DNA of 64,000 nucleotides from Chloroflexi bacterium CFX6. GTDB lineage: Bacteria > Chloroflexota > Anaerolineae > Anaerolineales > Villigracilaceae. Positions within the stretch are counted from its first letter, which is position 1, and each line of letters begins with the position of its first letter. Shown here piece after piece: positions 5,493 to 53,056 of the stretch. The notes below the pieces were generated by a model that was given only the letters and a program-made list of their open reading frames with translations, had not been told where the DNA came from and ran no database searches. Made by a program: the position numbers and the translations under genes. The stretch is from assembly GCA_030263595.1 (NCBI GenBank), contig SZPG01000048.1, positions 1 through 64,000 of the forward strand, given 5' to 3'.

Positions 5493-6629
5493 ATGGCACT
5501 AAGTGGCATTCAAATTTACAAACTCCTCCCTCAAACGAACTGTAAGGAATGCGGCTTCCCAACCTGTCTTGCGTTCGCGATGAAACTCGCCGCGAAGCAG
5601 GTGGAACTCGGCGCGTGTCCGTATGTCAGCGAAGAATCGAAGAAGCAACTGGCTGAATCTTCCGCGCCGCCGATTCGACTCATCGCGCTCCGAGCCGATG
5701 GAACCGAAATCAAAGCGGGCAACGAAGTCGTGATGTTTCGCCACGAAAAGACCTTTTACAACAAGCCCGGTCTCTTCGTCCGCGTCAAAGCCTCCGACCC
5801 CGATCTTGCAAAGAAAGTTGCGGAAGCCGACGCGTACAAGGTCAATTACGTCGGCATGGATTTTTCGATTGACGGCTTCGCGGTCCTTGCAGATGCGGAT
5901 TTAGGTAATGCAATCAAAACGATTCGGACTGCGACGAAACGTCCGTTGATTTTGATGGGCGACTCCGCCTCGCTTCAATCTGGACTTGAGGCTTGCGGAG
6001 GCGAGACCCCATTACTCTACGCCGCCGACGCCTCCAACGCCGACGCGATGGCTGACCTTGCAAAGCAATTCAAAACCGCCCTCGTCGTCAAAGCGGACTC
6101 GCTCGACGCGCTTGCAGACTTGACTCAAAAGATTCAAGCCAAGGGAGTCGAAGACCTCGTTCTCGATCCGTCTCCAAAGACGTTGAGCGAAGAGGTAACG
6201 CGCAACACGCAACTCCGCCGACTCGCCCTCAAGAATATGCGCGCGCTTGGTTATCCCATCATCGCCTTCCCCTGCGATGCGAAAGATGAAGCCGTCGCCG
6301 CCGCGCAAGCGATCGCGAAATACGCAGGCTTTGTGGTGCTGAGCGAATTCAAACCCGAATTGCTCTATCCGTTGCTCGTCCTGCGCGAGAACATCTACAC
6401 CGACCCGCAGAAACCGATCCAAGTCCAGCCCGGCGTGTACGAGATCAATTCGCCGAAGCCCGAAAGCCCGGTGCTGGTCACGACGAACTTCAGCATCACA
6501 TACTTTGCGGTTGCGCAAGGTCAACAGGAAACGAATCGTTTTGCCCGGTCACGTCGCGGTGCTTTCAGGCGAAGTGGAAGAGGAACTCCCGGATTGGGAA
6601 ATCCGCGTTGGACCAAGAGAAGCGGTTGA
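5493..6629 (+). CDS. acsC: Corrinoid iron-sulfur protein large subunit, 3' end disrupted
   Basis: Large subunit of the corrinoid/Fe-S methyl carrier. The N-terminal 4Fe-4S motif NCKECGFPTC has cysteines at 17, 20 and 25 plus Cys42, as in known AcsC, followed by the TIM barrel. The start has AGGAGA upstream. The open frame gives 378 residues, while the family is about 445. Homology stops at SITYFAV (about residue 340), and the last 38 residues (QGQQETNRFARSRRG and so on) are non-homologous. The expected C-terminus appears in another frame at 6517-6663. The corrinoid-binding part of the C-terminal domain, roughly 50 residues, is missing. It is either a real lesion that would inactivate the protein or an assembly or read error. 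Confidence 0.9.
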   Translation: MALSGIQIYKLLPQTNCKECGFPTCLAFAMKLAAKQVELGACPYVSEESKKQLAESSAPPIRLIALRADGTEIKAGNEVVMFRHEKTFYNKPGLFVRVKASDPDLAKKVAEADAYKVNYVGMDFSIDGFAVLADADLGNAIKTIRTATKRPLILMGDSASLQSGLEACGGETPLLYAADASNADAMADLAKQFKTALVVKADSLDALADLTQKIQAKGVEDLVLDPSPKTLSEEVTRNTQLRRLALKNMRALGYPIIAFPCDAKDEAVAAAQAIAKYAGFVVLSEFKPELLYPLLVLRENIYTDPQKPIQVQPGVYEINSPKPESPVLVTTNFSITYFAVAQGQQETNRFARSRRGAFRRSGRGTPGLGNPRWTKRSG

Positions 6630-6663
6630 TTTACCCGCGTTTATGAAGCAGGCATTGAACTAA
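6517..6663 (+). pseudogene. acsC: Out-of-frame C-terminal remnant of acsC
   Basis: Read in the frame beginning at 6517, this segment encodes KVNRKRIVLPGHVAVLSGEV followed by an ELPDWEIRVGPREA-type ending, and stops at TAA 6661-6663. This is the characteristic AcsC C-terminus (family form: IPGxxAxLSGxLEEELPGWEVxVGPREA). It joins the upstream frame at about 6513-6517 with around 50 expected residues missing. It shows that the acsC frame was broken by a deletion whose length is not a multiple of three. Confidence 0.88.
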
Positions 6664-6812
6664 TGTCATTGCGAGCGGAGGTCGAGTAGGGCTGAGTGTT
6701 CTCCTCAGCCCGTATCGAGACCGAAGCGAAGCAATCTCCTCTTCAGCAAGATTCCTCCGCGTGACGGGAGATTGCTTCGTCGCATAGAGCAAGAGCGCTC
6801 CTCGCAACGACA
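6664..6812. repeat. REP-like palindromic element, copy 1
   Basis: Begins TGTCATTGCGAG immediately after the acsC remnant stop and ends CTCGCAACGACA. Inside are the arms GAAGCAATCTC and GAGATTGCTTCG, and a nested inverted repeat GTCGAGTAGGGCTGA / TCAGCCCGTATCGAGAC. The same architecture occurs at 9785, 50037, 55352 and 61158. Apart from this element, the 160-bp gap before acsV holds only the short leader. Confidence 0.88.
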
Positions 6813-6823
6813 TATGAAAACAA

Positions 6824-8797
6824 ATGCAACACTCTATCACCTTCACCGGCGAAAACATAAACGCCAAAGTTCAAGTCCCCACCAACACGTTGCTGGCGGA
6901 TGCCGCGCATCTCGCGGGCATTGACATCGGTCAGCCGTGCGGCGGGCAGGGACGCTGCGGTCGCTGCGCGGTGCAGGTGACGGAGGGAACGGTCAGGCGA
7001 AGAAGCGCGCTGCGCCTTTCCCCTGCCGATATCGAGCAGGGTTACGCGCTCGCCTGTCAAACCGTCGTTGAAGGCGATGTGGCGATCTACGTCCCGCCGC
7101 AGGAGAAGATCGAACGAAGACTCACGACTGATAGAGTCGTTGCGGAAGTGACGGTCCCAGCGGACTACGAGTATCCGTTCTCGCAGACGGTTCGCCGTGT
7201 GCATCTCACTCTCACTCCGCCAAGCATGGACGACCAGACCGACGACTGGTCGCGTTTGCAGACGGCATTCCGATTGCAGCATCAGGTGGAGAGCCTTACG
7301 TGTTCCGTGAGTTTGTTGAGGAAGATGGGATATGTGCTGCGTGAGGGCGATTGGAATGTCACTGCTGTTATCGAGACGAGAAGACTGGAAGACCATCAGA
7401 CGATCAGACTAATAGACTTGTGCCCCTACCACGAAGACGAATACGCTCCGCTCTGGGGCTGCGCCATTGACATCGGCACGACGACGGTCACGCTTTGGCT
7501 GGTGGATTTGGTAACGGGTCAAGTCAAAGCGCAGGTTGCGGAATACAACGGACAGATCGCGCGCGGCGAGGATGTCATTTCGAGAATCATCTACACCAAC
7601 AAGAACGGCGGCGGGGATGAGTTGCGTCAGCGCGTGCTGGAGACGATCAACAGCCTGCTCGAACTGGCGTGCAAGCGCGTCAAGTCGCCTCAAGGCAAAG
7701 TGACTCCCGACCAGGTCGTCAAAGCGACCATCGCGGGCAACAGCACGATGATGCACCTATTGTTGGGGGTTCCCGCATCAAGCATTCGACTCTCACCGTT
7801 TATTACTGCGGTCAATCACCCTCCATTGATGACGGGACGCGAAGTCGGCTTGAATGTGAATCCCGAAGCGGTGGTGGATTGTCTGCCCGGCGTGGCAAGT
7901 TACGTCGGCGCGGATATTACAGCAGGCGTATTGTCCTCAGGACTCGACAGCGCGGAGAACGTGACTCTCTTCCTGGATGTCGGGACGAACGGCGAAACAG
8001 TGCTGGGCGACCGCGATTGGCTCGTCACGTGCGCGTGTTCGGCGGGACCGGCGTTCGAAGGCGCGGGTGTGGTCAATGGCATGAGGGCAACGCAGGGCGC
8101 CATCGAAGAAGTGTGGATCAACAGCGAAACGCTCGAGCCGACGTACCGCGTCATCGGCGGAGGCAAGCCGAAGGGAATTTGCGGAAGCGGGTTGATCTCC
8201 CTGCTCTCGGAGGCGTTCATCACGGGAGTCATTGACAAGGGAGGCAATGTCAATTTGGCGGCGCGCAGTCCGCGGGTCCGCGAAGGAGCGCATGGAGGGG
8301 AGTACGTCGTGGCTTGGGGCAGCGAATCCGAATCGGGCGAAGATATCGTCATCACCAGAGTTGACGTTGATAACCTGCTGCGCGCCAAAGCCGCCATCTA
8401 CGCGGGCTTCACGGTGCTGGCGGAGAACGTCGGCATCCCGCTCGAAACGACGGACAAGGTTTTGATCGGCGGGTCGTTCGGAAAATATATCAATGTCGAG
8501 AAGGCGGTGCAGATCGGGTTACTGCCCGATATGGATTGGTCGCGCTTCGAGTTTCTCGGCAATACGTCGGTGAAAGGCGCGTATCTCGCGCTGCTCGATT
8601 GGAGGAAGCGCGAGCGCATTACCGAGATTGCGAAGCGCATGACATACATCGAGTTATCGGCGGATAACAGTTTTTATGAAGCGTTCACATCGGCTCTATT
8701 TCTGCCGCACACGGATTTGAGCAAGTTCCCGAGTGTGGCGGAGGCTCTGGAAAGTAAACAAGTAGACAAGGAGACAGGTACACACGTAGACAAGTAG
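6824..8797 (+). CDS. acsV: Corrinoid protein reductive activator (RACo-type, ferredoxin plus ASKHA ATPase)
   Basis: ATP-dependent activator that re-reduces the inactive Co(II) corrinoid protein. The N-terminal 2Fe-2S ferredoxin domain has Cys39, 45 and 48 (QPCGGQGRCGRC) and a fourth Cys near residue 80 (ALACQ). The DUF4445/ASKHA-like ATPase core starts near residue 215 with AIDIGTTTVTLWLVD and includes VGTNGE, SAGPAFEGAG and KGICGSGLI. Length (657) is normal for the family. The linker at 7373-7418 (ETRRLEDHQTIRLIDL) is encoded by DNA resembling the 511-630 repeats. The last residues, KQVDKETGTHVDK, are encoded by the 10-bp repeat array, so the C-terminus is repeat-derived. No strong Shine-Dalgarno is seen (GAAAACAAATG). 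Confidence 0.93.
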   Translation: MQHSITFTGENINAKVQVPTNTLLADAAHLAGIDIGQPCGGQGRCGRCAVQVTEGTVRRRSALRLSPADIEQGYALACQTVVEGDVAIYVPPQEKIERRLTTDRVVAEVTVPADYEYPFSQTVRRVHLTLTPPSMDDQTDDWSRLQTAFRLQHQVESLTCSVSLLRKMGYVLREGDWNVTAVIETRRLEDHQTIRLIDLCPYHEDEYAPLWGCAIDIGTTTVTLWLVDLVTGQVKAQVAEYNGQIARGEDVISRIIYTNKNGGGDELRQRVLETINSLLELACKRVKSPQGKVTPDQVVKATIAGNSTMMHLLLGVPASSIRLSPFITAVNHPPLMTGREVGLNVNPEAVVDCLPGVASYVGADITAGVLSSGLDSAENVTLFLDVGTNGETVLGDRDWLVTCACSAGPAFEGAGVVNGMRATQGAIEEVWINSETLEPTYRVIGGGKPKGICGSGLISLLSEAFITGVIDKGGNVNLAARSPRVREGAHGGEYVVAWGSESESGEDIVITRVDVDNLLRAKAAIYAGFTVLAENVGIPLETTDKVLIGGSFGKYINVEKAVQIGLLPDMDWSRFEFLGNTSVKGAYLALLDWRKRERITEIAKRMTYIELSADNSFYEAFTSALFLPHTDLSKFPSVAEALESKQVDKETGTHVDK

Positions 8798-8846
8798 GCA
8801 GGTAAACACGTGTTTACTTGTGTACTTGTTTACCTGTGTACCAGAT
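8752..8846. repeat. 10-bp tandem repeats spanning acsV end
   Basis: Units such as AAACAAGTAGACAAG, GGTACACACGTAGACAAG and, past the inversion point near 8810, TGTTTACTTGTGTACTTGTTTACCTGTGTACC. The array includes the last 15 or so codons of acsV and ends at the acsE Shine-Dalgarno. Like the 4342-4447 array it flips orientation midway, giving a large imperfect palindrome centred near 8812 (ACACGTGT). Confidence 0.87.
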
Positions 8847-8856
8847 AGGAGAAACC

Positions 8857-9780
8857 ATGTACATCATCGGCGAGAACATTCACATCATCTCGGAAAAGGT
8901 GAAGGAAGCATTGAAGAACAGGGACCGCGAGTTCTTCATGGATCTGGCGGTCAAGCAGGTGGAGGCGGGCGCGAAAGCCGTTGACATCAATCTCGGTCCG
9001 CGCAAGAAGGATTGGGCGGAGGTCTTCCCGTGGATCGTCGAAACGGTCGAAACGGTCGTGGACGTGCCGCTTTCGATTGACACAACGAATGTTGACGGCA
9101 TGGAGGCGGCTCTGCAGAAAATCACGAAGGCGCAGCCGATCTTGAATTCCACGTCTGCGGAGCCTGAACGATTGGAGAAAGTTCCGCTGCTGGCAAAGAA
9201 GTACAACGCCAAGGTCATCGCGCTGACGATGCGGAGCGAGGGCATCCCCGTCGAGGCGGACGCGCGCGTCACCATCGCGGTCGAGCAATTGATCCCGCGC
9301 ATGATGGAGATTGACCTCCCGATGGAGAATCTCATCATTGACCCGCTCGTTCTCACTGTAAGCGGTTGCCAGCAATATTGCCCGCATCTCATCGAAACGG
9401 TGCGGACGCTGCAATATGCCTGGGACCCCGCGCCCATGATCTCGGTCGGGTTGTCGAACGTGTCGAACGCGGTGCCGAACGAGGGACGTCCCCTCATCAA
9501 CCGCGTCTACCTCGCCATGCTGATGGGCGTCGGCTTGCAGATGATGATCGCCAACCCGTTCGACGAAAAGCAGAATGATGTCATTAGATGGATAGAGACA
9601 AAGGACACTAGCAATCCGCTTGCCGCTGTCTACAATAAGATTGCGGATCGCATCGCGGCGGGCGAAGAGCCCCAGATGGAAGATTTCGACCTATCCGACC
9701 CCGAACAGTCCGCAATCTGGAAGACCACGCAGATTTTGTTGAACAAAGTGATTTACGCGGATTCGTATTTGATGAACTAA
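8857..9780 (+). CDS. acsE: Methyltetrahydrofolate:corrinoid protein methyltransferase
   Basis: A 307-residue TIM-barrel enzyme (pterin-binding family) that moves the methyl group of 5-methyl-H4folate to the corrinoid protein. Pterin-binding signatures are GAKAVDINLGPRKKDW, PLSIDTTNVDGMEAAL, ILNSTSAEPERL and LIIDPLVLTVSG. ATG 8857 is preceded by AGGAGA; an upstream in-frame start at 8818 lies in the repeat array. It is followed within five bases by REP-like copy 2 and then metVF. Function and pathway placement are secure. Confidence 0.95.
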   Translation: MYIIGENIHIISEKVKEALKNRDREFFMDLAVKQVEAGAKAVDINLGPRKKDWAEVFPWIVETVETVVDVPLSIDTTNVDGMEAALQKITKAQPILNSTSAEPERLEKVPLLAKKYNAKVIALTMRSEGIPVEADARVTIAVEQLIPRMMEIDLPMENLIIDPLVLTVSGCQQYCPHLIETVRTLQYAWDPAPMISVGLSNVSNAVPNEGRPLINRVYLAMLMGVGLQMMIANPFDEKQNDVIRWIETKDTSNPLAAVYNKIADRIAAGEEPQMEDFDLSDPEQSAIWKTTQILLNKVIYADSYLMN

Positions 9781-9784
9781 CATG

Positions 9785-9875
9785 TGTCATTGCGAGGGCG
9801 GTGTTCGTCCGCCGAAGCAATCCCCTCATTCTAGTTGGAGATTGCTTCGTCGCCTATCGGCTCCTCGCAATGACA
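9785..9875. repeat. REP-like palindromic element, copy 2
   Basis: Compact 91-bp copy: TGTCATTGCGAGG at the left, GAAGCAATC and GAGATTGCTTCG as inner arms, and CTCGCAATGACA at the right. It begins 4 bases after the acsE stop and ends 11 bases before the metVF ATG, so it is transcribed inside the operon and can form a long hairpin in the mRNA. Confidence 0.9.
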
Positions 9876-9886
9876 AAGGAGCCCTC

Positions 9887-11374
9887 ATGCCTGTATTCAC
9901 CCCCGGTCGCCGCTGGCAGCCGCCCTATTTACCCTTCAAGCGTGAACCGTTGAACCGCCGCGCGCTTGCGACTCTCGAAAAACTGATCAAAGGTCCGTTG
10001 TTCGGATGCCGCATGTGCGGAAACTGCCTGCTTCAAGAAACCGCCTTCATCTGTCCGATGGAATGTCCCAAGGGCGAGCGCAACGGTCCGTGCGGCGGCT
10101 CGACCAAAGAACACTGCTACGTGGACGAGACGCGTCCCTGCATCTGGTACAGGATCTACGAGCGCTCGTTCAGGATGGGACGCGAAGAGAAACTGCTCGA
10201 AGTCCTGCCCCCGCTCGATTGGGACAAGGTCGGCACCGAAACGTGGGGCGACGTGTTCCACAGGGTGGGGGAGATTGGCGCGGGCAAGGTGGTCAGCGGA
10301 TTGCTGTTCAAGCCTGCCGAAGTCCGCTACAAGACCTGGGACGATGTCTTCGAGCCGATCCGCGAACCCGACTGGTGGCAGGGCGATAACAAATATCACG
10401 CGCCGAACTACACCGAACCTGTCTCCGAACTCCAACGCAGACTTAAAGCGGGTGAATTCGTCGTCACCGCCGAAGTCGCGCCGCCGCTCACCGTGAAGAC
10501 CGACAAGTTGTTCAAGAACATCGAAATGGTCAAGCCCTACGTGGCGGCAATCAACTTTACCGACAACCCCTCCGCCACGCCGCGCATGTCCTCCCAGGCT
10601 TGTTCCAAGATGGCAATCGAACACGGCGCAGAACCCGTCATGCAGATCGCGGCGCGCGACCGCACGCGCGTCGGCTTGCAGTCTGAGGTCATGGGCGCGA
10701 GCGCGATGGGAATCCGCAACATCCTGTGTCTCTCCGGCGACTCGATGAAGATGGCGCCCGAGCCGCGCGGACGAATGGACGTGATTGACATCGACTCCAT
10801 CCAAATGCTGTGGATCCTGCGCCGTATGCGCGACGAGGGCAGGTACATGGACGGGCGCGAGATCAAGTTCCCGCCTCAATACTTCCTCGGAGCCGCCGCC
10901 TCCCCCTTTGCGTCCGAGCCGAAATTCCAGGCGTTGCGCGAGCACAAGAAGATCAACGCCGGCGCGCAATTCTTCCAGACCAACCTGGTCTATGACGTGG
11001 AACACATGGAAGTCTGGCTGAACGAACTCGCCAAACGGAACATCCTCGACAAGGTCTATATCCTCATCGGCATCACGCCGCTCAAAACCTTCAAGATGGC
11101 GAAGTACATGAACGACGAGGTGCCGGGCGTGTCCATTCCCTTCAACCTCATGGTGCGCATGGAACGCGCCGACAAGGCGGGCAACGCCCAGGAGGAAGGC
11201 GTGCAGATCGCGCTCGAACTCATCGAGAAGATCAAAAAGTTCGAAGGTCAGGGCGTGAACGGTCTGCACATCATGGCGGTCGGTTGGGAGGACATCGTCC
11301 CGCGCATCGTCACCGAAGGCGGGGTCCTGCCGAAGGACCTCCCCCAACCCGAACTCGAGAAAGTGCCCGCGTAA
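9887..11374 (+). CDS. metVF: Fused MetV - methylenetetrahydrofolate reductase (MetF)
   Basis: A 495-residue fusion. Residues 1 to about 170 are the MetV-like cysteine-rich domain (methylene-H4F reductase C-terminal family) with motifs GCRMCGNCLLQ, CPMECPKGERNGPCGGS and CYVDETRPC, predicted to bind Fe-S or zinc. From about 180 the MetF TIM barrel follows, with FVVTAEVAPPLTVKTDKLF, VAAINFTDNPSATPRMS and NILCLSGDS. It reduces methylene-H4folate to the methyl-H4folate used by acsE. In acetogens metV and metF are usually separate adjacent genes. ATG 9887 follows AAAGGAG; the longer frame from 9782 would translate the REP element. FAD-containing MetF with an uncertain electron donor. Confidence 0.92.
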   Translation: MPVFTPGRRWQPPYLPFKREPLNRRALATLEKLIKGPLFGCRMCGNCLLQETAFICPMECPKGERNGPCGGSTKEHCYVDETRPCIWYRIYERSFRMGREEKLLEVLPPLDWDKVGTETWGDVFHRVGEIGAGKVVSGLLFKPAEVRYKTWDDVFEPIREPDWWQGDNKYHAPNYTEPVSELQRRLKAGEFVVTAEVAPPLTVKTDKLFKNIEMVKPYVAAINFTDNPSATPRMSSQACSKMAIEHGAEPVMQIAARDRTRVGLQSEVMGASAMGIRNILCLSGDSMKMAPEPRGRMDVIDIDSIQMLWILRRMRDEGRYMDGREIKFPPQYFLGAAASPFASEPKFQALREHKKINAGAQFFQTNLVYDVEHMEVWLNELAKRNILDKVYILIGITPLKTFKMAKYMNDEVPGVSIPFNLMVRMERADKAGNAQEEGVQIALELIEKIKKFEGQGVNGLHIMAVGWEDIVPRIVTEGGVLPKDLPQPELEKVPA

Positions 11375-45737: not shown

Positions 45738-46076
45738 TTATGGGAGATTCAAAGAAAAATACATGAATGGTGAATAGGGACCATAGCCATAGGGACCATG
45801 GTCACGCACCCACCATCTGTAATCTCCCGTTCCCAAACCTGCCAAAGCCGAAGGTATGACCTCACAACTTGTATCCACGTTGCAGCCCGCTTCAATCGCA
45901 GTGTACCATCTGCTGAACAGTATGGTCCCGCCTGCCGTCTGCACTTGCAAAAAATAGTGGGTTGCAGCGCTGTGGCCGGTCCAACTGAAAGTGTTATTCC
46001 AACTGGTCAACGAGCCATTGGGCGCGATCAGTATCTCACCGCGGAAGGTGGCAGTTACATTCTTGTTACCGTTCAT
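45738..46076 (-). pseudogene. Out-of-frame C-terminal repeat of the surface protein
   Basis: This 112-codon frame begins MNGNKNVTATFRGEILIAPN and continues with a full copy of the repeat domain (NNTFSWTGHSAATHYFLQVQ, GCNVDTSCEVIPSALAGLG, GYGPYSPFMYFSLNLP). It is the third copy of the repeat that ends the 46066-49194 protein and ends with a natural-looking stop. It is cut off from that protein by an 80-bp deletion that shifts the frame. If the deletion is an assembly fault, this is the true C-terminus. Confidence 0.85.
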
Positions 46077-49000
46077 CGAGTTGGATTACCGTACCAGCTG
46101 TATAGCCGCCGCTACAGGTCTGGGCAGGTACCAGAACAGAGCCGCTTCCGACCACACTCGTTGCCAGCGTGTAACAGGCGATGCTAAGGTCAAAGGTCAT
46201 GTAGGGAGAGTAGGGACCATAGCCATAAGCGCCATAATCGCGCACATGCCACTTGTAATTCCCAGCGCCCAAGCTTGCCAATTCAGATGGTATGACATCA
46301 CAACTGGTATCTGTATCACAGCCTGCCTGTGCCGCTGTATACCATTTGTTCAACAGGACCGTGTTATCCGCTTTCTGCACTTGCAAAAAATAGTGGGTTG
46401 CAGCGCTAGCGCTGTGGCCAGTCCAACTGAAAGTGTTATTCCAACTGGTCAACGAGCCATTGGGTGCGATCAGTATCTCACCGCGGAAAGTGGCAGTTAC
46501 ATTCTTGTTACCGTTCATCGTGATGCTGACGGGGTTGGTCGTTCCACTCGCATCCCCACTCCAGCCTCCAAAGGCGAAGCCTGTGCTTGGTAGAGCTGTG
46601 AGTTGGATTACCGTACCAGCTGTATAGCCGCCGCTACAGGTCTGGGCAGGCGGCGGAACTGAACCGCTGCCAACCACATTCATTGTTAATATGTAACAAT
46701 CTCCACTCAGAGCAAAACTTGTGAAGGTAGTGTAGGGACCAAACCCGTAGGTGCCACTACCATAGTCTTCAACCCACCACTTGTAGTTCCCTTGGGCAAG
46801 GCTTCCTAACGCGGTAGGTGACACTTGACAACTCAAGTCCATATCACAACCTGCCTGTGCTGTGGTAAACCACTGTTTATGAACCAGAACATCGGCGTCC
46901 GTGTACACTTCCAATAAATATGCTGTCGCGCCACTTACTCCCGTCCAACTGAAAATGTTAGCCCAGTTCGTCAGTGAACCACTCGGCGCGAGCAACACTG
47001 ATACTTCCGGAGTTGCGTAGAACAGATTCACATTCTCGATCACAGGTGTAATTCCGAGCGTCGGACTGGACAGGCTGGCGCGATATTGGATATAACGCCC
47101 ATAGGGGAACGTTGTTGCGCTGCCGACTGCCCCCCAACCAGACCAGTAGTCATTCGGAGTGGGGGTGTTGCCGGTATGAACTTCCACATTCACGGTTGTT
47201 CCGTCTGGGGTTTGCAATGTGGCTGTCTGATTGTTCCAGTTCACCACTTCTCCCGCATCGAACACCCGCGACTCGAACACACACGAAGTCGAGGATGGAA
47301 TATTCAACCTCACCGCCCCATCCCCGATCGTATTATCCACCACGCAATCCCCCACGGTCCCCGCGTTGAAATCCGCTGCGGTGGTATCGGTAAAGCCTCC
47401 GCCGCTGGTAGTGAAACTCCAGGTATCGTTGCTTCCCAACGTGTTCCCGGTCAGGTCCGCGACGGAACCGGAGACGGTCACGTTATACAGCGTGCCGGAA
47501 GCCAGGTCGGAGGTTGGATCCAGCGTGGCGACCTGGTTGGCGTAACTGACCGTCGCAGGCACGTCGCTGCCGGCGCCGTCCGCGCGCAGGGTGAAGGTCG
47601 AGTTCGTGATGCTGGCGGGATTCATCGGCTCGCTGAATGTGACGGTCACGTTCGTGCCAACGGCGACATCGGTTGCCGATGGAGCAGGCGAACGATCGGT
47701 GATGGTTGGAGGAACATCCACCTCATACGCCCCCATATCGCACGCTGTCCCTTGCGGGCGGGTCACGCCGCGCTGGTCGGTGGAGGCGCAGGTGGAGTTG
47801 TTTCCCGCGTCAATTGCGGCGCTCCCGGTACCCAGCGCCATCGTCTGAGTAAAGCCGCCGTTGTTCGCGAGCGCGCCCAATAGCGGATCGGAATTCAGGA
47901 CGTTCGTACAGGTCGCGCCTGCGGGACAACCTCCCTGCACGATGCTGTCATTGACGGTAATGCTGCCGGTCCCGTCGCTCGTGATCTCGGTTGCGGTGTC
48001 TCCCCAGAAAACGGAGTTGTGGATCACCGGGTTGCTGACTTGCAGGGTTACAGGCTCCTGGGCGTTCCGCATGGCGCTTCCGTCCACGTTGTCTGCGGTG
48101 CTGGTATTCCCGCTGAAGGTGACGTTGTTCAACGTGGGACTGCTGGCAACGTTCATCAGCCCGCCGCCGCCGCGGGGATCAGCCCCGCCATTATTCGACG
48201 TATTATTGTAAAAGGTCACGTTCGTCAGGACGGCAGTGCTGAACTCCAGCAAAAGGCCCCCGCCGCGCCGGTTGGCGACATTGCCGCTGAAAGTGACGTT
48301 CGTCAAATGACCGGTGCTGTTGCCGATGAACAGGCCGCCGCCTCCGGTCGCCGTGTTATTGATAAAAGACACGTTCGTGAGGATCGGGTTGATGGGCGGG
48401 TCGAACGCCCCGTTGGTCTGGGAATTCATCCCGCCGCCGCCCGTCGCCAGGGCGATATTATCAATGAAGACCACGTTTTCCAATATCGGGTCGCTGTTAT
48501 GGCTGAACAACCCGCCGCCGCGCCCGGAGCGGTTGTTGGAAAACGTCACGTTGGAAATGACCGGCGTGATGATGGGACTGCCTGCCTGGTCGTTCATATA
48601 CACTCCGCCCCCGCCGCTGCCTACGGTATTGCCCGCCCGGTTATCCGTGATGATAAGGTTGTTCAGGGTGGGACTGCTGTTGACGATGTAAATGCCGGCG
48701 CCGAAAGCGTTGCCATCGGCGTCCGTCACGTGACCTAGGGTTACTGTGAAGCCGTCCAGGGTGGGGGCGGTCGTTGTATTGGCAATCGTGACAATGTGGA
48801 ATGAATTGTCGGTTCTATCGCCCACCGTGCCGATATCGCCGCTCAGGATCGTGTTCGCCGGGTCTGGGTTGCGTTGGCTGCGCGCAGTTTCCGTGCCGAC
48901 GAAACCGCCATAGACAGCCACGCCGCCTGGGATCGTGAACGTATCCGCGCGGGCTGCGCCTGGCGTGTACGTCCCCTGCTGGACCCAAATCTCGTCGCCG

Positions 49001-49194
49001 TCAACGGCGGCAGTCAACGCGCGTTGTAACGTGCATGCGGCTCCCCAACTATCGCACGGACCGCTGGACAGTCCGCCTGAAGCCACCACGTAGCGATTCG
49101 TCGCGGCGGACGCCGATTGCGGGTATGCAAACTGGCTGATGACAAGCATAATAAGGATGGAAAAGGACGCAAGTTGTCGCCGGGTGGTCTTCAT
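46066..49194 (-). CDS. Secreted beta-helix/Ig-like multidomain surface protein, frameshifted near its end
   Basis: 1042 residues. Signal peptide MKTTRRQLASFSILIMLVIS... to SASAA. Residues about 35-520 are a pectate-lyase-like parallel beta-helix (repeats such as GGGGVYMNDQ, NPILTNVSFINNTA) ending with GSAAIDAGNNSTC...CDMGAYEV, the choice-of-anchor-Q signature. Then an SbsA-like Ig domain (PPTITDRSPAPSATDVAVGTNV), and two copies of a repeat with a Fn3-like unit (SGSLTNWANIFSWTGVSGATAYLLEVY) plus an InlB-like unit (GGYTAGTVIQLTALPSTGFAFGGWSG). The second copy breaks off at TVIQLDER and stop. ATG 49194 is chosen for the signal peptide and its AGGAGAA site. Probably a cell-surface adhesin or sheath protein. 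Confidence 0.88.
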   Translation of the reverse strand: MKTTRRQLASFSILIMLVISQFAYPQSASAATNRYVVASGGLSSGPCDSWGAACTLQRALTAAVDGDEIWVQQGTYTPGAARADTFTIPGGVAVYGGFVGTETARSQRNPDPANTILSGDIGTVGDRTDNSFHIVTIANTTTAPTLDGFTVTLGHVTDADGNAFGAGIYIVNSSPTLNNLIITDNRAGNTVGSGGGGVYMNDQAGSPIITPVISNVTFSNNRSGRGGGLFSHNSDPILENVVFIDNIALATGGGGMNSQTNGAFDPPINPILTNVSFINNTATGGGGLFIGNSTGHLTNVTFSGNVANRRGGGLLLEFSTAVLTNVTFYNNTSNNGGADPRGGGGLMNVASSPTLNNVTFSGNTSTADNVDGSAMRNAQEPVTLQVSNPVIHNSVFWGDTATEITSDGTGSITVNDSIVQGGCPAGATCTNVLNSDPLLGALANNGGFTQTMALGTGSAAIDAGNNSTCASTDQRGVTRPQGTACDMGAYEVDVPPTITDRSPAPSATDVAVGTNVTVTFSEPMNPASITNSTFTLRADGAGSDVPATVSYANQVATLDPTSDLASGTLYNVTVSGSVADLTGNTLGSNDTWSFTTSGGGFTDTTAADFNAGTVGDCVVDNTIGDGAVRLNIPSSTSCVFESRVFDAGEVVNWNNQTATLQTPDGTTVNVEVHTGNTPTPNDYWSGWGAVGSATTFPYGRYIQYRASLSSPTLGITPVIENVNLFYATPEVSVLLAPSGSLTNWANIFSWTGVSGATAYLLEVYTDADVLVHKQWFTTAQAGCDMDLSCQVSPTALGSLAQGNYKWWVEDYGSGTYGFGPYTTFTSFALSGDCYILTMNVVGSGSVPPPAQTCSGGYTAGTVIQLTALPSTGFAFGGWSGDASGTTNPVSITMNGNKNVTATFRGEILIAPNGSLTSWNNTFSWTGHSASAATHYFLQVQKADNTVLLNKWYTAAQAGCDTDTSCDVIPSELASLGAGNYKWHVRDYGAYGYGPYSPYMTFDLSIACYTLATSVVGSGSVLVPAQTCSGGYTAGTVIQLDER

Positions 49195-49380
49195 TCTCGT
49201 TTCTCCTCGAACGCTATTCACAAATGGAAAATCAACCCCTCTTTGCATTATTGCAAGCATGACGTACATTATATCTGACAGGTTACAGAAGACCGATCGG
49301 CAATTCCGCGCGGGAGGACTCCCCGAAGCGGGCGGTTGTGTGCGGTAAAATTCGCTTCACACCCTGACGAGGAAACTGCC

Positions 49381-50010: not shown

Positions 50011-50036
50011 GGTCGGTAAATTATTAACTTCCCTCA

Positions 50037-50129
50037 TGTCGTTGCGAGTCTTCGAGAAGCAATCTCGTGTTGCCATGGATTTTCCTGCAAAGTGGGGATT
50101 GCTTCGGGACGAACACCCTCGCAATGACA
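50037..50129. repeat. REP-like palindromic element, copy 3
   Basis: TGTCGTTGCGAG at the left, GAAGCAATCTC and GGGGATTGCTTCG as inner arms, CTCGCAATGACA at the right; 93 bp. It occupies the first third of the 330-bp gap between the glycosylase and nirS; the rest of that gap is the nirS upstream region. Confidence 0.87.
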
Positions 50130-50254
50130 TTCATTTCGTGGAAGGTGAGGGAGCATATTTTTTTACGAACCCTTAGCGGCAGCGGTGAATTTTCGAGGGG
50201 CGTACCCGAAAAGCGGGGAATGTCGTTTCGCGCTGCAACCCTTCAGGCGCCCAT

Positions 50255-50340: not shown

Positions 50341-52731
50341 ATGAAACTTGTCAAGTTGGGGTCGCTTTTTCTGCTTTTCGCCGCGATCCTCGCGGCGTGC
50401 GGAGGCGGCGAAGGACTGGTCAGCGCAAGGGAATACGTGTTGACCACCGGCATCGAGGACGGGACTCCCGTCTTCCTGGGCGTGGGCGACGAGATCAACG
50501 GCGCGGTCAACCCGGAATTGCGGGCGGAACCGGGCGAGACGATCACGGTCACGCTCATCAACGGCGGCGAGGGCAGGCACCAGATCGTTTTTCCGTCGCT
50601 CAAAGTGAAAACGGACGAAGTGCATGAAAAGGGAGAGAGCGCTTCGGTAACGTTCAAGGCGCCCAATGAGGCGGGGGAACTGGAATACATGGACGGCAAT
50701 TCCGCTTTCGAGGCGCTGGGCATGAAGGGCGTGCTGGTCGTCGCTCCCGACGGGGCGCCGTCCGCTGAAAGACCCGCCGGGCTTTACGTCAATGAACTCG
50801 CCGTGCAAGCCATTCAAAAGGGCGGATGCGTGGCGTGTCACATCATACCCGGCGTTCCGGGCGCGGTTGGCGTCATCGGTCCCGACCTGAGCGAGATCGG
50901 CGAAAAGGTCGCGGCGCGCATCGAGGCGGGCGAATATACCGGCATGGCAAAGACCATCGAGGAATACCTCCATGAATCCATCCAGTCGCCGGATGCGTTC
51001 ATCGCGCCCGATTGCCCGACCGGTCCGTGCGGCGCGGGGGTGATGCCCGCGTCGCTGGCGCAGACTCTCAGCGCGGACGAATTGAACGGCGTCGTAAATT
51101 ACCTGGCGTCGCTTCCAGAGGGGGCGACCGCCGCGGGACCAGAATCAGGCTTGGGTGAGTCCGAAGCGCCCGCGTTCATCGGAGATGTCCCCTCCCTGAC
51201 CGACGAGGAATTTTCCTGGGCAAAGCAGACCTTCTTCGAGCGGTGCGCGGGCTGTCACGGCACGTTGAGAAAAGGCGCGACGGGTCCCGCCCTCACGCCC
51301 GACGTTACCCTCCCCAAAGGGACGGTGGGTCTGGCGGCGATCATCTTCAACGGCACGACGGGCGGCATGCCCGATTGGGGCAAACAAGGCGTGTTGACCC
51401 AGGCAGAGACCGAAGTCATGGCGAAGTTCCTGCAAAACGAACCGCCCGCCCCGCCGGAAATGTCGCTGGAACAGATGAAGGCTTCGTGGCAGTTGATTAC
51501 GCCGGTGACGGAGCGCCCAACCGAGCCGCAGACCGCGCGCGACTGGCAAAACTATTTCATCGTGACCCTGCGCGACGCCGGGCAGGTGGCGATCATTGAC
51601 GGCGACACTTACGAGATCGTCAGCACGGTGGACAGCGGTTACGCCGTGCATATCACGCGCATGTCCGCTTCGGGACGGTACGCCTACGTGATCGGGCGCG
51701 ACGGACGGCTGGCGTTGATTGACCTGTGGATGGAGAAGCCCGAAGTGGTGGCGCGCGTGCAGACCTGTTACGACGCGCGTTCGGTGGAGGTGAGCAAATA
51801 CGACGGACCCGAAGGCGACTTCCGCGACAAATACGCCGTCACGGGTTGTTACTGGCCCCCCCACTTCGCCATCCTCGACGGGCAGACGCTCGAACCGATG
51901 AAGGTGGTTTCCACCCGCAGTTACACCTTCGATACCGGCGCTTATCACCCCGAGCCGCGCGTGGCGAGCATTCTGGCTTCGCACTATAAACCGGAATGGG
52001 TCGTGAACGTCAAGGAGACCGGGCAGATCTGGCTGGTGAATTACACCGATCCGCTCAATCCGTCCATCAAGATGATCAATGCCGCCCTGTTCCTGCACGA
52101 CGGCGGGGTGGATTCGACCAAACGTTACTTCCTGGTGGCGGCGAACCAATCCAACAAGGTCGCGGTGGTGGATCTGAAGACCAGCAGCCTGGCGGGGATC
52201 GCGGACGTGGGCGCGGTGCCGCATCCCGGACGCGGGGCGAACTGGATTGACCCTGAATTCGGTCCGGTATGGAGCACGCCGCATTTGGGCGAGGCTTCGG
52301 TGATGTCGCTGGGGACCGATCCCGAATCCCATGCCGAGAACGCGTGGAAGGCGGTTCGCACCACGCCTTTGCCTGGTTCCGGGAGTCTGTTCATCAAGAC
52401 TCACCCGAACAGTCAATGGGTCTGGGTGGACATGACGCTCAACTCCGACCCGGTCCTGGCGCGCACCATCTGCGTGATCGCCAAATCCGATCCGTCCCAG
52501 GCCTACAAGTGCTGGGAGATCGGGACGTACGGCCGGGCTGTCCACTTCGAATACAACCGCGACGGCACCGAAGTGTGGGTCAGCCTGTGGGGCGACGCTG
52601 CGAAACCCGGCGAGACCGGCGCGATCGTCATCTACGACGACGCCACACTGGAGGAGAAGGCGCGCATTGACAACCTGATCACGCCGACGGGCAAGTTCAA
52701 TGTGTACAACACGGTGAGCGACATTTACTAA
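50341..52731 (+). CDS. nirS: Chimeric cytochrome cd1 nitrite reductase (lipoprotein, cupredoxin - cyt c - cyt c - d1)
   Basis: 796 residues; reduces nitrite to NO outside the cytoplasmic membrane. Lipobox LAAC (Cys20). Residues about 55-140 are a cupredoxin-like domain (GETITVTLINGGEGRHQIVF ... FEALGMKGVLVV) that keeps one His and the Met but lacks the Cys and second His of a type 1 copper site. An extra cytochrome c has CVACH at 163-167 and Met235. The NirS cytochrome c follows (CAGCH 302-306, Met343 in GGMPDW), then the eight-bladed d1 domain from about 400. The d1 proximal His is 437 and the distal His are 586 (FLHDGG) and 628 (PHPGRG), the 42-residue spacing matching Pseudomonas His327/His369. 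AAAGGAGAAGTC precedes the ATG. No haem d1 synthesis genes are in the window. Confidence 0.95.
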   Translation: MKLVKLGSLFLLFAAILAACGGGEGLVSAREYVLTTGIEDGTPVFLGVGDEINGAVNPELRAEPGETITVTLINGGEGRHQIVFPSLKVKTDEVHEKGESASVTFKAPNEAGELEYMDGNSAFEALGMKGVLVVAPDGAPSAERPAGLYVNELAVQAIQKGGCVACHIIPGVPGAVGVIGPDLSEIGEKVAARIEAGEYTGMAKTIEEYLHESIQSPDAFIAPDCPTGPCGAGVMPASLAQTLSADELNGVVNYLASLPEGATAAGPESGLGESEAPAFIGDVPSLTDEEFSWAKQTFFERCAGCHGTLRKGATGPALTPDVTLPKGTVGLAAIIFNGTTGGMPDWGKQGVLTQAETEVMAKFLQNEPPAPPEMSLEQMKASWQLITPVTERPTEPQTARDWQNYFIVTLRDAGQVAIIDGDTYEIVSTVDSGYAVHITRMSASGRYAYVIGRDGRLALIDLWMEKPEVVARVQTCYDARSVEVSKYDGPEGDFRDKYAVTGCYWPPHFAILDGQTLEPMKVVSTRSYTFDTGAYHPEPRVASILASHYKPEWVVNVKETGQIWLVNYTDPLNPSIKMINAALFLHDGGVDSTKRYFLVAANQSNKVAVVDLKTSSLAGIADVGAVPHPGRGANWIDPEFGPVWSTPHLGEASVMSLGTDPESHAENAWKAVRTTPLPGSGSLFIKTHPNSQWVWVDMTLNSDPVLARTICVIAKSDPSQAYKCWEIGTYGRAVHFEYNRDGTEVWVSLWGDAAKPGETGAIVIYDDATLEEKARIDNLITPTGKFNVYNTVSDIY

Positions 52732-52780: not shown

Positions 52781-52824
52781 GGGACCGCTGTATTCTCCAG
52801 GATACAGCGGTCCCTTTTGTGTTT
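52781..52824 (+). terminator. Terminator after nirS
   Basis: Stem GGGACCGCTGTAT (52781-52793) and ATACAGCGGTCCC (52802-52814), 8-base loop, then TTTTGTGTTTT. It lies 50 bases after the nirS stop, so nirS is probably a single-gene transcript. Confidence 0.92.
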
Positions 52825-52854: not shown

Positions 52855-53056
52855 TTAGAGAGTGTTTCTTAAGTCCAAGTTATCATCTTTTCTGTACACG
52901 GATACTTCGACAGGGTCTCGGCAGGCTCGACCACCTGCTCAGTACAAGTTTCACGGACAACACGGAAAAGAGCGCTTTTTTTAATGGTCTTTCCGTGAAA
53001 ATCAGTGAAATCCGTGGTGTCCGTGTCCAAAAGAGTCGTTAAGAAACACTCTCTAA
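52855..53056. mobile_element. 202-bp MITE-like element with 18-bp perfect terminal inverted repeats
   Basis: TTAGAGAGTGTTTCTTAA at 52855-52872 and its exact reverse complement at 53039-53056. No transposase frame is inside; the interior holds words common in dispersed repeats (CTTCGACAGGGTCTCGGCAG; TTTCCGTGAAAATCAGTG). No clear target duplication is seen at the edges (flanks TCTG and GGCG). It fills half of the 398-bp gap between nirS and the rib genes. Confidence 0.7.

Follow-up and report, generated by a model that had tools for sequence, protein, structure and literature searches.

Metagenomic studies use nirS, the gene for cytochrome cd1 nitrite reductase, to recognise denitrifiers. Among the Chloroflexi, Schwartz et al. 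(2022) described a chimeric form, C1-C2-NirS, in which an additional cytochrome c (C1) precedes the haem c domain (C2) and the haem d1 propeller, together with eNOR and, in a few proteins, an N-terminal cupredoxin (PMC8756737; this and the other papers cited by PMC number are drawn on in excerpt). The cupredoxin before C1-C2-NirS is found there in the legend of Figure A6c and in the Discussion, and the same paper reports no denitrification genes within 20 kb of nirS (PMC8756737). Here we analyzed 64,000 nucleotides from Chloroflexi bacterium CFX6 (contig SZPG01000048.1, positions 1 to 64,000; hereafter the window), which carry a nitrite reductase gene of this kind. An initial annotation of the window had pointed to a chimeric Nir architecture reported from Chloroflexi; that architecture exists (PMC8756737), and the window protein is akin to it. 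Below, relatives are numbered by locus (L) and by genome (G), with the window's own genome as G000.

Domains and ligands of the window protein

The nitrite reductase is encoded by a single open reading frame (ORF) of 796 amino acids (50341-52731, plus strand; Table 1), which starts with the ATG at 50341, preceded by the Shine-Dalgarno-like AAAGGAG, and whose stop codon ends at 52731. Pfam identified Cytochrom_D1 over residues 401-791 (421 bits) and two cytochrome c stretches. As annotated initially, the canonical NirS part is complete: C302-A-G-C305-H306 and Met343 are present in C2, and His437, His586 and His628 in d1. These ligands are kept in 31/31 Chloroflexota rows and 45/45 rows overall, counting rows with letters at those positions. 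The extra cytochrome c, annotated from a second CxxCH and Met235, was likewise confirmed (C163-V-A-C166-H167 with Met235). Its haem ligands occur in 33/33 Chloroflexota rows, whereas all 14 non-Chloroflexota rows have a gap at the C1 cysteine. Fusion of C1 before C2-d1, found in Chloroflexota only, is the mark of the Chloroflexi C1-C2-NirS chimera, and the window protein bears it. C1 resembles SoxX (40.5 bits), below the SoxX cut-off of 61. Two additional cysteines, Cys225 and Cys230 (window 51013-51030), lie shortly before Met235 and are both kept in 33/33 Chloroflexota rows; they may form a disulfide or a redox switch.

The annotated lipobox (LAA-Cys20) fits a bacterial lipoprotein as judged by sequence pattern alone; many of the relatives listed have similar N-termini, and some show no lipobox. 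For the whole protein we generated an AlphaFold2 model from 47 rows (the window protein, 45 of 52 nirS loci and the second L027 protein). The mean predicted local distance difference test (pLDDT) score was 83.7, with 83-96 per ten-residue block over residues 31-130 and values below 50 at residues 139-149, 224-235 (by the C1 methionine) and 263-277. The best match in the PDB was cytochrome cd1 (1h9x), with a template modelling (TM) score of 0.93 by target and 51% identity. Most likely, the window protein belongs to the cytochrome cd1 nitrite reductases of the C1-C2-NirS kind, is anchored by a lipid and carries an extra N-terminal module.

Haem d1 supply in Chloroflexota carriers of nirS

The supply of the d1 cofactor is more surprising than the loss of the copper site described below. 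We take PF17805 to be the siroheme decarboxylase NirDLGH, and SUMT/NirE, NirJ and NirF to be likewise linked to d1 synthesis. Profile searches of the window's own genome gave no PF17805 match and no SUMT match at E <= 1e-20 (NirC was not searched), and the best NirJ match reached 101.8 bits. Beyond one strong Cytochrom_D1 match, two weak ones scored at most 24.5 bits alone and 30.4 bits with neighbours. Thus, the d1 supply that usually accompanies NirS in the same genome (SUMT/NirE, NirDLGH, NirJ and NirF) was not found there.

We searched 15 further Chloroflexota carriers for PF17805 and used five non-Chloroflexota cd1 genomes as controls (two Scalindua, one labelled Deltaproteobacteria, Halobeggiatoa and one Gammaproteobacteria). 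PF17805 exceeded its cut-off in 0/15 carriers, G397 falling below it at 21.8 bits, versus 5/5 controls. NirJ, SUMT and extra Cytochrom_D1 matches were searched for in 14 Chloroflexota records, own genome included, and in the five controls; since G213 and G396 encode identical NirS they are probably one species, leaving 13 independent records. NirJ matches were at most 153 bits in Chloroflexota (0/14 at 374 bits or more) versus 374-646 bits in the controls. Cytochrom_D1 matches beyond the NirS frame at more than 190 bits were found in 0/14 Chloroflexota records versus 4/5 controls; the extra match of G405 is a second NirS-length frame, and a NirF- or NirN-like match was present in three of the five controls. 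Weak extra matches over the family cut-off (26-48 bits, alone or with neighbours) occurred in G000, G027, G061, G130, G399 and G400.

Similar results were obtained across the class. A census of 396 Anaerolineae genomes, scoring at most four Cytochrom_D1 candidates per genome, yielded a match at E <= 1e-10 in 38 genomes, one each, of which 27 are of the window type (E <= 6.2e-120). PF17805 was over its cut-off in 0/27 of these and in 11 other genomes of the class. Among the other 11 D1-positive genomes, G049, with a D1 fragment located at the end of a contig, reaches 31 bits for PF17805, just over the cut-off. Nine genomes (G096, G103, G114, G181, G193, G234, G244, G346 and G378) encode a cd1-like protein 33-35% identical to the window's (E 5e-71 to 6e-81, a single D1 match each), and none of these nine has PF17805 over the cut-off. 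None of the four markers passed the thresholds used in three carriers that consist of one contig each (G027, G213 and G228) or in G398, the isolate Longilinea arvoryzae KOME-1, whose C1-C2-NirS gene is at locus L049. Additionally, clustering of 694 ORFs from 52 loci (families in at least three loci) lent no support to d1 genes lying beside nirS. Neighbour families comprised a Crp/FNR-type regulator (18 loci), a 364-amino-acid protein without a Pfam match (11), a heavy-metal ATPase (8), a MazG/tetrapyrrole-methylase protein (3) and one radical S-adenosylmethionine (SAM) family (four loci, all Planctomycetota: L038, L040, L047 and L054). Because these searches did not turn up the known d1 genes in the carrier genomes, the cells probably obtain d1 from neighbouring bacteria or synthesise it in a way not yet described.

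Several points weigh against this conclusion. The apparent absence comes from profile searches, and the own genome is 90.9% complete. We chose the NirJ threshold of 374 bits, the score of the weakest control, once the search results were in, and only two of the five controls pass the curated 515 bits. SUMT was found in one of the 14 Chloroflexota records (G400, 297 bits) as well as in 5/5 controls, NirF-like extra matches are clear in just three of the five controls, and PF17805 scores 21.8 bits, short of its cut-off, in G199, which belongs to the 27 window-type genomes. Lastly, ligand conservation is not proof of d1 binding.

Synthesis inside the cell by undescribed enzymes, such as PqqD-linked radical SAM proteins working without the usual SUMT start, is a possibility that we hold tentatively. 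The strictly conserved cd1 site suggests a reliable d1 supply, and the own genome contains two adjoining PqqD-type radical SAM genes (C129; L124:5688-8411), the first of which matches NirJ at 101 bits, comparable to matches of 92-105 bits in other carriers. A MazG protein with an N-terminal tetrapyrrole-methylase domain also lies near nirS in three of the 52 loci (L007:14569-16029, minus strand; L031; L035). However, the C129 protein matches PqqE (115.9 bits) better than NirJ, whose cut-off it misses by far, and the pair was ruled out as NirJ. Its first gene looks frame-broken near the C-terminus by eye, which may lower the score, yet unbroken-looking matches in relatives score alike. Carriers G228 and G348 lack a NirJ match at E <= 1e-18, and the one radical SAM family among the neighbour families shared by at least three of the 52 loci is confined to Planctomycetota.

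A protein operating without d1, with another haem or nothing in its propeller and with another job (NO or hydroxylamine chemistry, or sensing), appears unlikely. The failure to find known d1 genes in the carrier genomes searched agrees with such a protein, and Schwartz et al. leave open a function other than denitrification (PMC8756737). Nevertheless, no row with letters at these positions lacks any of the three d1 histidines, and the same holds for the Scalindua and proteobacterial rows; d1 markers are present in five of the genomes from which the Scalindua and proteobacterial rows come. Were the cofactor a different one, the pocket would be expected to loosen or change. We give slightly less credence to a search or assembly artefact. 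Most of the genomes are drafts, the own genome among the incomplete ones, and profile searches can miss diverged members, but G027, G213 and G228 each consist of one contig, with a completeness of 97-99%, and G398 is an isolate. Furthermore, the PF17805 matches in 11 other genomes of the class and the SUMT match of G400 indicate that both profiles work in Anaerolineae. Uptake from neighbours or an undescribed route remains the reading we prefer. In the mainly open-access literature covered, with subscription journals mostly outside it, we met no paper noting that nirS carriers of the Chloroflexota lack d1 genes, nor any such remark in the excerpts of PMC12569097, PMC5671600, PMC9530715, PMC12505453 and PMC13168839.

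The Cup0 copper site and exchange of the module between nirS and nirK

The initial annotation had also proposed a cupredoxin-like domain lacking the copper cysteine and second histidine while keeping the first histidine and last methionine. The Pfam Cupredoxin_1 match (residues 59-134, 17.8 bits) lies under the 27-bit cut-off, so a predicted structure was needed. Modelled alone from eight sequences (mean pLDDT 88.8), the domain best matched the N-terminal part of the three-domain copper nitrite reductase (CuNIR) of Hyphomicrobium denitrificans (TM 0.85-0.87, 31-34% identity). Structure prediction, which the annotation had named as a check that could refute its proposal, therefore gives a cupredoxin fold. 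Profile alignment to two Hyphomicrobium NIR sequences placed Asp118, Phe123 and Met128 at the cysteine, second histidine and methionine, while His80 remains. Thus, of the type 1 His-Cys-His-Met set, His80 and Met128 are present, with Asp118 for the cysteine and Phe123 for the second histidine, just as had been claimed. We refer to this domain as Cup0.

To place the change, we aligned 44 distinct cupredoxin rows that the Cup0 profile picked out from the loci gathered; of the places matched in the class census the best 30 were included, so that weaker canonical relatives are under-sampled. Scored with the Cup0 profile, the rows split without overlap into 17 at 148 bits or more and 27 at 93 bits or less, and the 17 Cup0 rows form one side of a tree branch with support 100/100. 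The cysteine column holds aspartate in 17/17 Cup0 rows and cysteine in 26/27 canonical rows. The remaining canonical row is the first copy of a cupredoxin pair in L206 (G381), with glycine for the copper cysteine and tyrosine for the second histidine, a separate copper-site loss in another lineage. Among the Cup0 rows the methionine is kept in 17/17 and the first histidine in 15/17 (glutamine in L004 and L005), while the second histidine is kept in 10/17, comprising 7/8 NirK-borne and 3/9 NirS-borne copies; the NirK-borne copy of L084 has both histidines. The Cys-to-Asp change is common to the whole Cup0 clade, on NirK and NirS enzymes alike; loss of the second histidine is patchier, which indicates further decay mostly on NirS enzymes.

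Two other accounts were ruled out: misaligned ligands, by the aspartate at the cysteine column relative to the two Hyphomicrobium NIR sequences and the 27 canonical rows, and a loss private to the window protein, by the aspartate in all 17 Cup0 rows. The annotation had asked whether homologues retain the ligands; the cysteine is present in 0/17 Cup0 rows, yet the second histidine in 10/17. Its suggestion that copper-site loss is the new part stands in that we met no treatment of the ligands in the excerpts of PMC8756737; it falls short in that the loss is clade-wide and the cupredoxin itself already published.

Since its site in the window protein cannot hold a blue copper, Cup0 probably serves as a spacer, a dock or an oligomerisation module and not as an electron carrier. 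The N-terminal domain of the Hyphomicrobium NIR lies about 24 Å from the core copper and forms the contact between trimers (PMC7201279), so that a version devoid of copper could reasonably have a structural function. Arguing the other way, in pulse radiolysis the N-terminal copper of that enzyme takes the electron first (PMC7201279), so there the domain is not merely structural. It is improbable that Cup0 still functions as a metal site in electron transfer or copper handling, with a His-Asp-His-Met centre that would be the natural counterpart of the one engineered in C112D azurin. The retention of aspartate and methionine in all 17 copies and of the histidines in 15 and 10, the homologous Hyphomicrobium domain that accepts electrons (PMC7201279), and an aspartate said to bind copper in place of cysteine in azurin (PMC11966278) would fit such a site. 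Conversely, the second histidine is phenylalanine in the window and absent from 6/9 NirS-borne copies, L004 and L005 also lack the first histidine, and the reorganisation energy of C112D azurin far exceeds that of the wild-type protein (PMC8915257).

Cup0 occurs in three architectures. It precedes C1-C2-NirS in the window, L004-L007, L012, L030, L034 and L057; it precedes C1-NirK in L027, L083, L084 and L085; and with a second, canonical cupredoxin it precedes NirK in L086 (own genome, G000:C120) and L087-L089. L027 (317 bits) and L086 (337 bits) exceed the 296-bit NCBIfam cut-off for copper nitrite reductase, and the remaining Cup0-NirK proteins share 49-82% identity with these two or among themselves. 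The class census of 396 genomes placed Cup0 (more than 150 bits) at nine sites in eight genomes. NirS-borne Cup0 was found in two of the 27 genomes with a window-type cd1 (G000 and G130) and at seven of the 52 nirS loci. In L027 the Cup0-C1-NirK gene (6006-7784) lies directly upstream of a C1-C2-NirS gene (7980-10010) on the same strand. In L030 (DIDP01000039.1) nirS is split into two overlapping frames (7998-8930 and 8825-10366), with the frame break between C1 and C2. That break, and the suspicion of Schwartz et al. that cupredoxin-C1-NirK was an assembly artefact because the few copies were identical (PMC8756737), might suggest that faulty assembly or a shifted frame created the fusion. This is very hard to credit given nine NirS-borne copies (of which L004 and L005 hardly differ and L030 is read across its break), four Cup0-C1-NirK proteins only 66-80% identical to one another, and the single open frame in the window.

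Trees of the two modules disagree. In the cd1 tree the window groups with L012, L004 and L005 (99/97), and approximately unbiased (AU) tests on the cd1 data reject a window+L030 clade (p 2e-5) and an L012+L034+L057 clade (p 5e-4). In the Cup0 tree, by contrast, the window groups with L030 (97/98), and the Cup0 data reject a clade of the window with L012, L004 and L005 (AU p 3e-4). A single clade of NirS-borne Cup0, with NirS and NirK rows grouped by architecture, was rejected in three data sets (AU p 0.0036, 0.020 and 0.00011, the last without L006 and L007). This conflict between the Cup0 and cd1 trees means that the Cup0 module has been swapped, including between NirS and NirK genes. Identities follow the trees in part: window and L012 share 52% over Cup0, 79% over C1 and 88-89% over C2 and d1, whereas the window and the NirK protein L083 share 60% over Cup0 and 51% over C1. 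The linker at residues 137-152 is 75% identical to L012 and, over ten columns, 20% identical to L030; the swap junction probably lies near it.

Some features of these comparisons weaken the case for exchange. The window and L057 share 58% over Cup0 and 81% over C1, so identity alone would not show it. Additionally, AU subsets such as window+L030 were picked after the trees were known, the Cup0 rows are short (124-127 columns) with several long branches, and C1 was compared by identity, with no C1 tree. On the cd1 data, a single clade of all Cup0-bearing rows was not rejected (p 0.33), so a single gain of Cup0 with later loss in L008 is possible. The L039 sequence starts inside d1 and says nothing on Cup0 there.

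Gene surroundings, overall reading and comparison with known systems

The features of the gene are collected in Table 1.

Table 1. Features of the nitrite reductase gene in the window
Feature	Position	Strand	Basis
Cup0-C1-C2-d1 lipoprotein nitrite reductase, 796 aa	50341..52731	+	ORF, Pfam, AAAGGAG before ATG
Lipoprotein signal peptide, end LAA-Cys20	50341..50400	+	sequence pattern
Cup0 cupredoxin domain, Cys-to-Asp (His80, Asp118, Phe123, Met128), ~28-136	50422..50748	+	alignment, predicted fold
C1 cytochrome c, CVACH 163-167, Met235, ~150-262	50788..51126	+	Pfam, ligand residues
C2 (cytochrome cd1 haem c domain), CAGCH 302-306, Met343, ~285-370	51193..51450	+	Pfam, structure match, residues
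Haem d1 beta-propeller, His437/His586/His628, residues 401-791	51541..52713	+	Pfam, structure match, residues
Hairpin then T-rich run, likely nirS terminator	52781..52814	+	16-nt arms, 94% complementary

Between nirS and a ribD-like gene lies a 202-bp element (52855-53056) with perfect 18-nt inverted repeats at its ends, resembling a miniature inverted-repeat transposable element; no second copy was found in the window or in the six own-genome stretches compared. A 130-bp repeat upstream of nirS (50021-50150) has a 96% identical copy at L086:1763-1891, about 2.8 kb from the own-genome nirK. Positions 46066-49269 (minus strand) encode a 1067-amino-acid repeat protein with Chlam_PMP, Big_5 and Flg_new_2 (InlB-type) matches. 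A uracil-DNA glycosylase gene adjoins nirS in the window and in one relative, represented by two records with identical NirS (L018:8450-9094 and L064:687-1331), which speaks for a genuine contig. A similar gene is also listed in the nirS neighbourhood of SURF MAG 42 (PMC8756737).

In the mechanism we propose, the lipid anchor at Cys20 would hold the enzyme at the membrane, where a membrane or soluble donor would reduce C1 (His167/Met235). C1 would pass electrons to haem c in C2 (His306/Met343), and C2 in turn to the d1 site, at which nitrite would be converted to nitric oxide (NO), a path suggested by the conserved ligands and the order of the domains. A feed from C1 to haem c is plausible and is also suggested by Schwartz et al. 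(PMC8756737). Cup0 would act as a non-blue spacer or dock, and d1 would come from neighbouring bacteria or an unknown route. As for the NO produced, the own genome encodes a haem-copper subunit I (C130; L127:4329-6113, minus strand) that matches COX1 at 201 bits, below every NCBIfam oxidase cut-off. Its COX1 motif, read by eye, is HPAQQ, whereas oxidases have HPxxY at this position. A glutamine there is a mark of eNOR according to Schwartz et al. (PMC8756737). With this subunit and the Cup0-cupredoxin-NirK of L086 in the same genome, NO removal by the organism is plausible. The COX1-like fragments of C107 in the own genome were also considered as an NO reductase and showed no such likeness by eye.

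On balance we favour, with somewhat better than even confidence, the whole reading of an anchored cd1 nitrite reductase with C1 as donor, a swapped, non-blue Cup0, and d1 from neighbours or an unknown route. The broader proposal stands at about even chances: that a whole lineage of cd1 enzymes lacks its own known-route d1 synthesis, the lipid-anchored enzyme picking up d1 that other denitrifiers release or a second, unknown route supplying it, and that the two unrelated types of nitrite reductase exchange, as a cassette, a cupredoxin with a natural Cys-to-Asp change. If carriers do lack known-route synthesis, nirS alone would be no proof of a capacity for nitrite reduction, and d1 would either be a common resource of the cells in biofilms and sludge or arise from a synthesis still to be discovered. 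With aspartate for the copper cysteine, the Cup0 cassette of NirS and NirK enzymes offers a natural test of what tethered domains contribute to nitrite reductases when blue-copper electron transfer is not open to them.

Compared with the chimera of Schwartz et al., the window protein has the domain order of Figure A6c (PMC8756737). Table A3 of that paper lists a cupredoxin ORF on DIDP01000039.1, the L030 contig, whose best segment is 85% identical to the window's, and groups this ORF with the C1 ORFs that lack NirS (PMC8756737), in keeping with the L030 frame break, by which NirS is cut off. Three points made here were not met in the excerpts of that paper (PMC8756737): the ligand change, the cupredoxin swaps that link NirS with NirK, and the genome-wide lack of d1 genes in the searches. 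The N-terminal cupredoxin of the three-domain Hyphomicrobium denitrificans CuNIR (2dv6, 6tfo, 6tfd; PMC7201279) is the nearest solved structure to Cup0. Like the window protein, that enzyme carries a cupredoxin N-terminally on a nitrite reductase; unlike it, the domain keeps the type 1 Cys, His and Met, the reductase is a CuNIR rather than a cd1 enzyme, and there is no C1.

Over C2-d1, the NirS proteins of Paracoccus and Pseudomonas are 50-52% identical to the window's (among the best 26 matches), with all haem ligands alike. These proteins are not known to have C1 or Cup0. The nir cluster of Pseudomonas aeruginosa holds d1 genes (Table A1, PMC8756737). Finally, C112D azurin, from the 'type zero' series, has the same Cys-to-Asp exchange in a cupredoxin copper site as Cup0. 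It is engineered and keeps both histidines, whereas the Cup0 of the window is natural and has lost the second.

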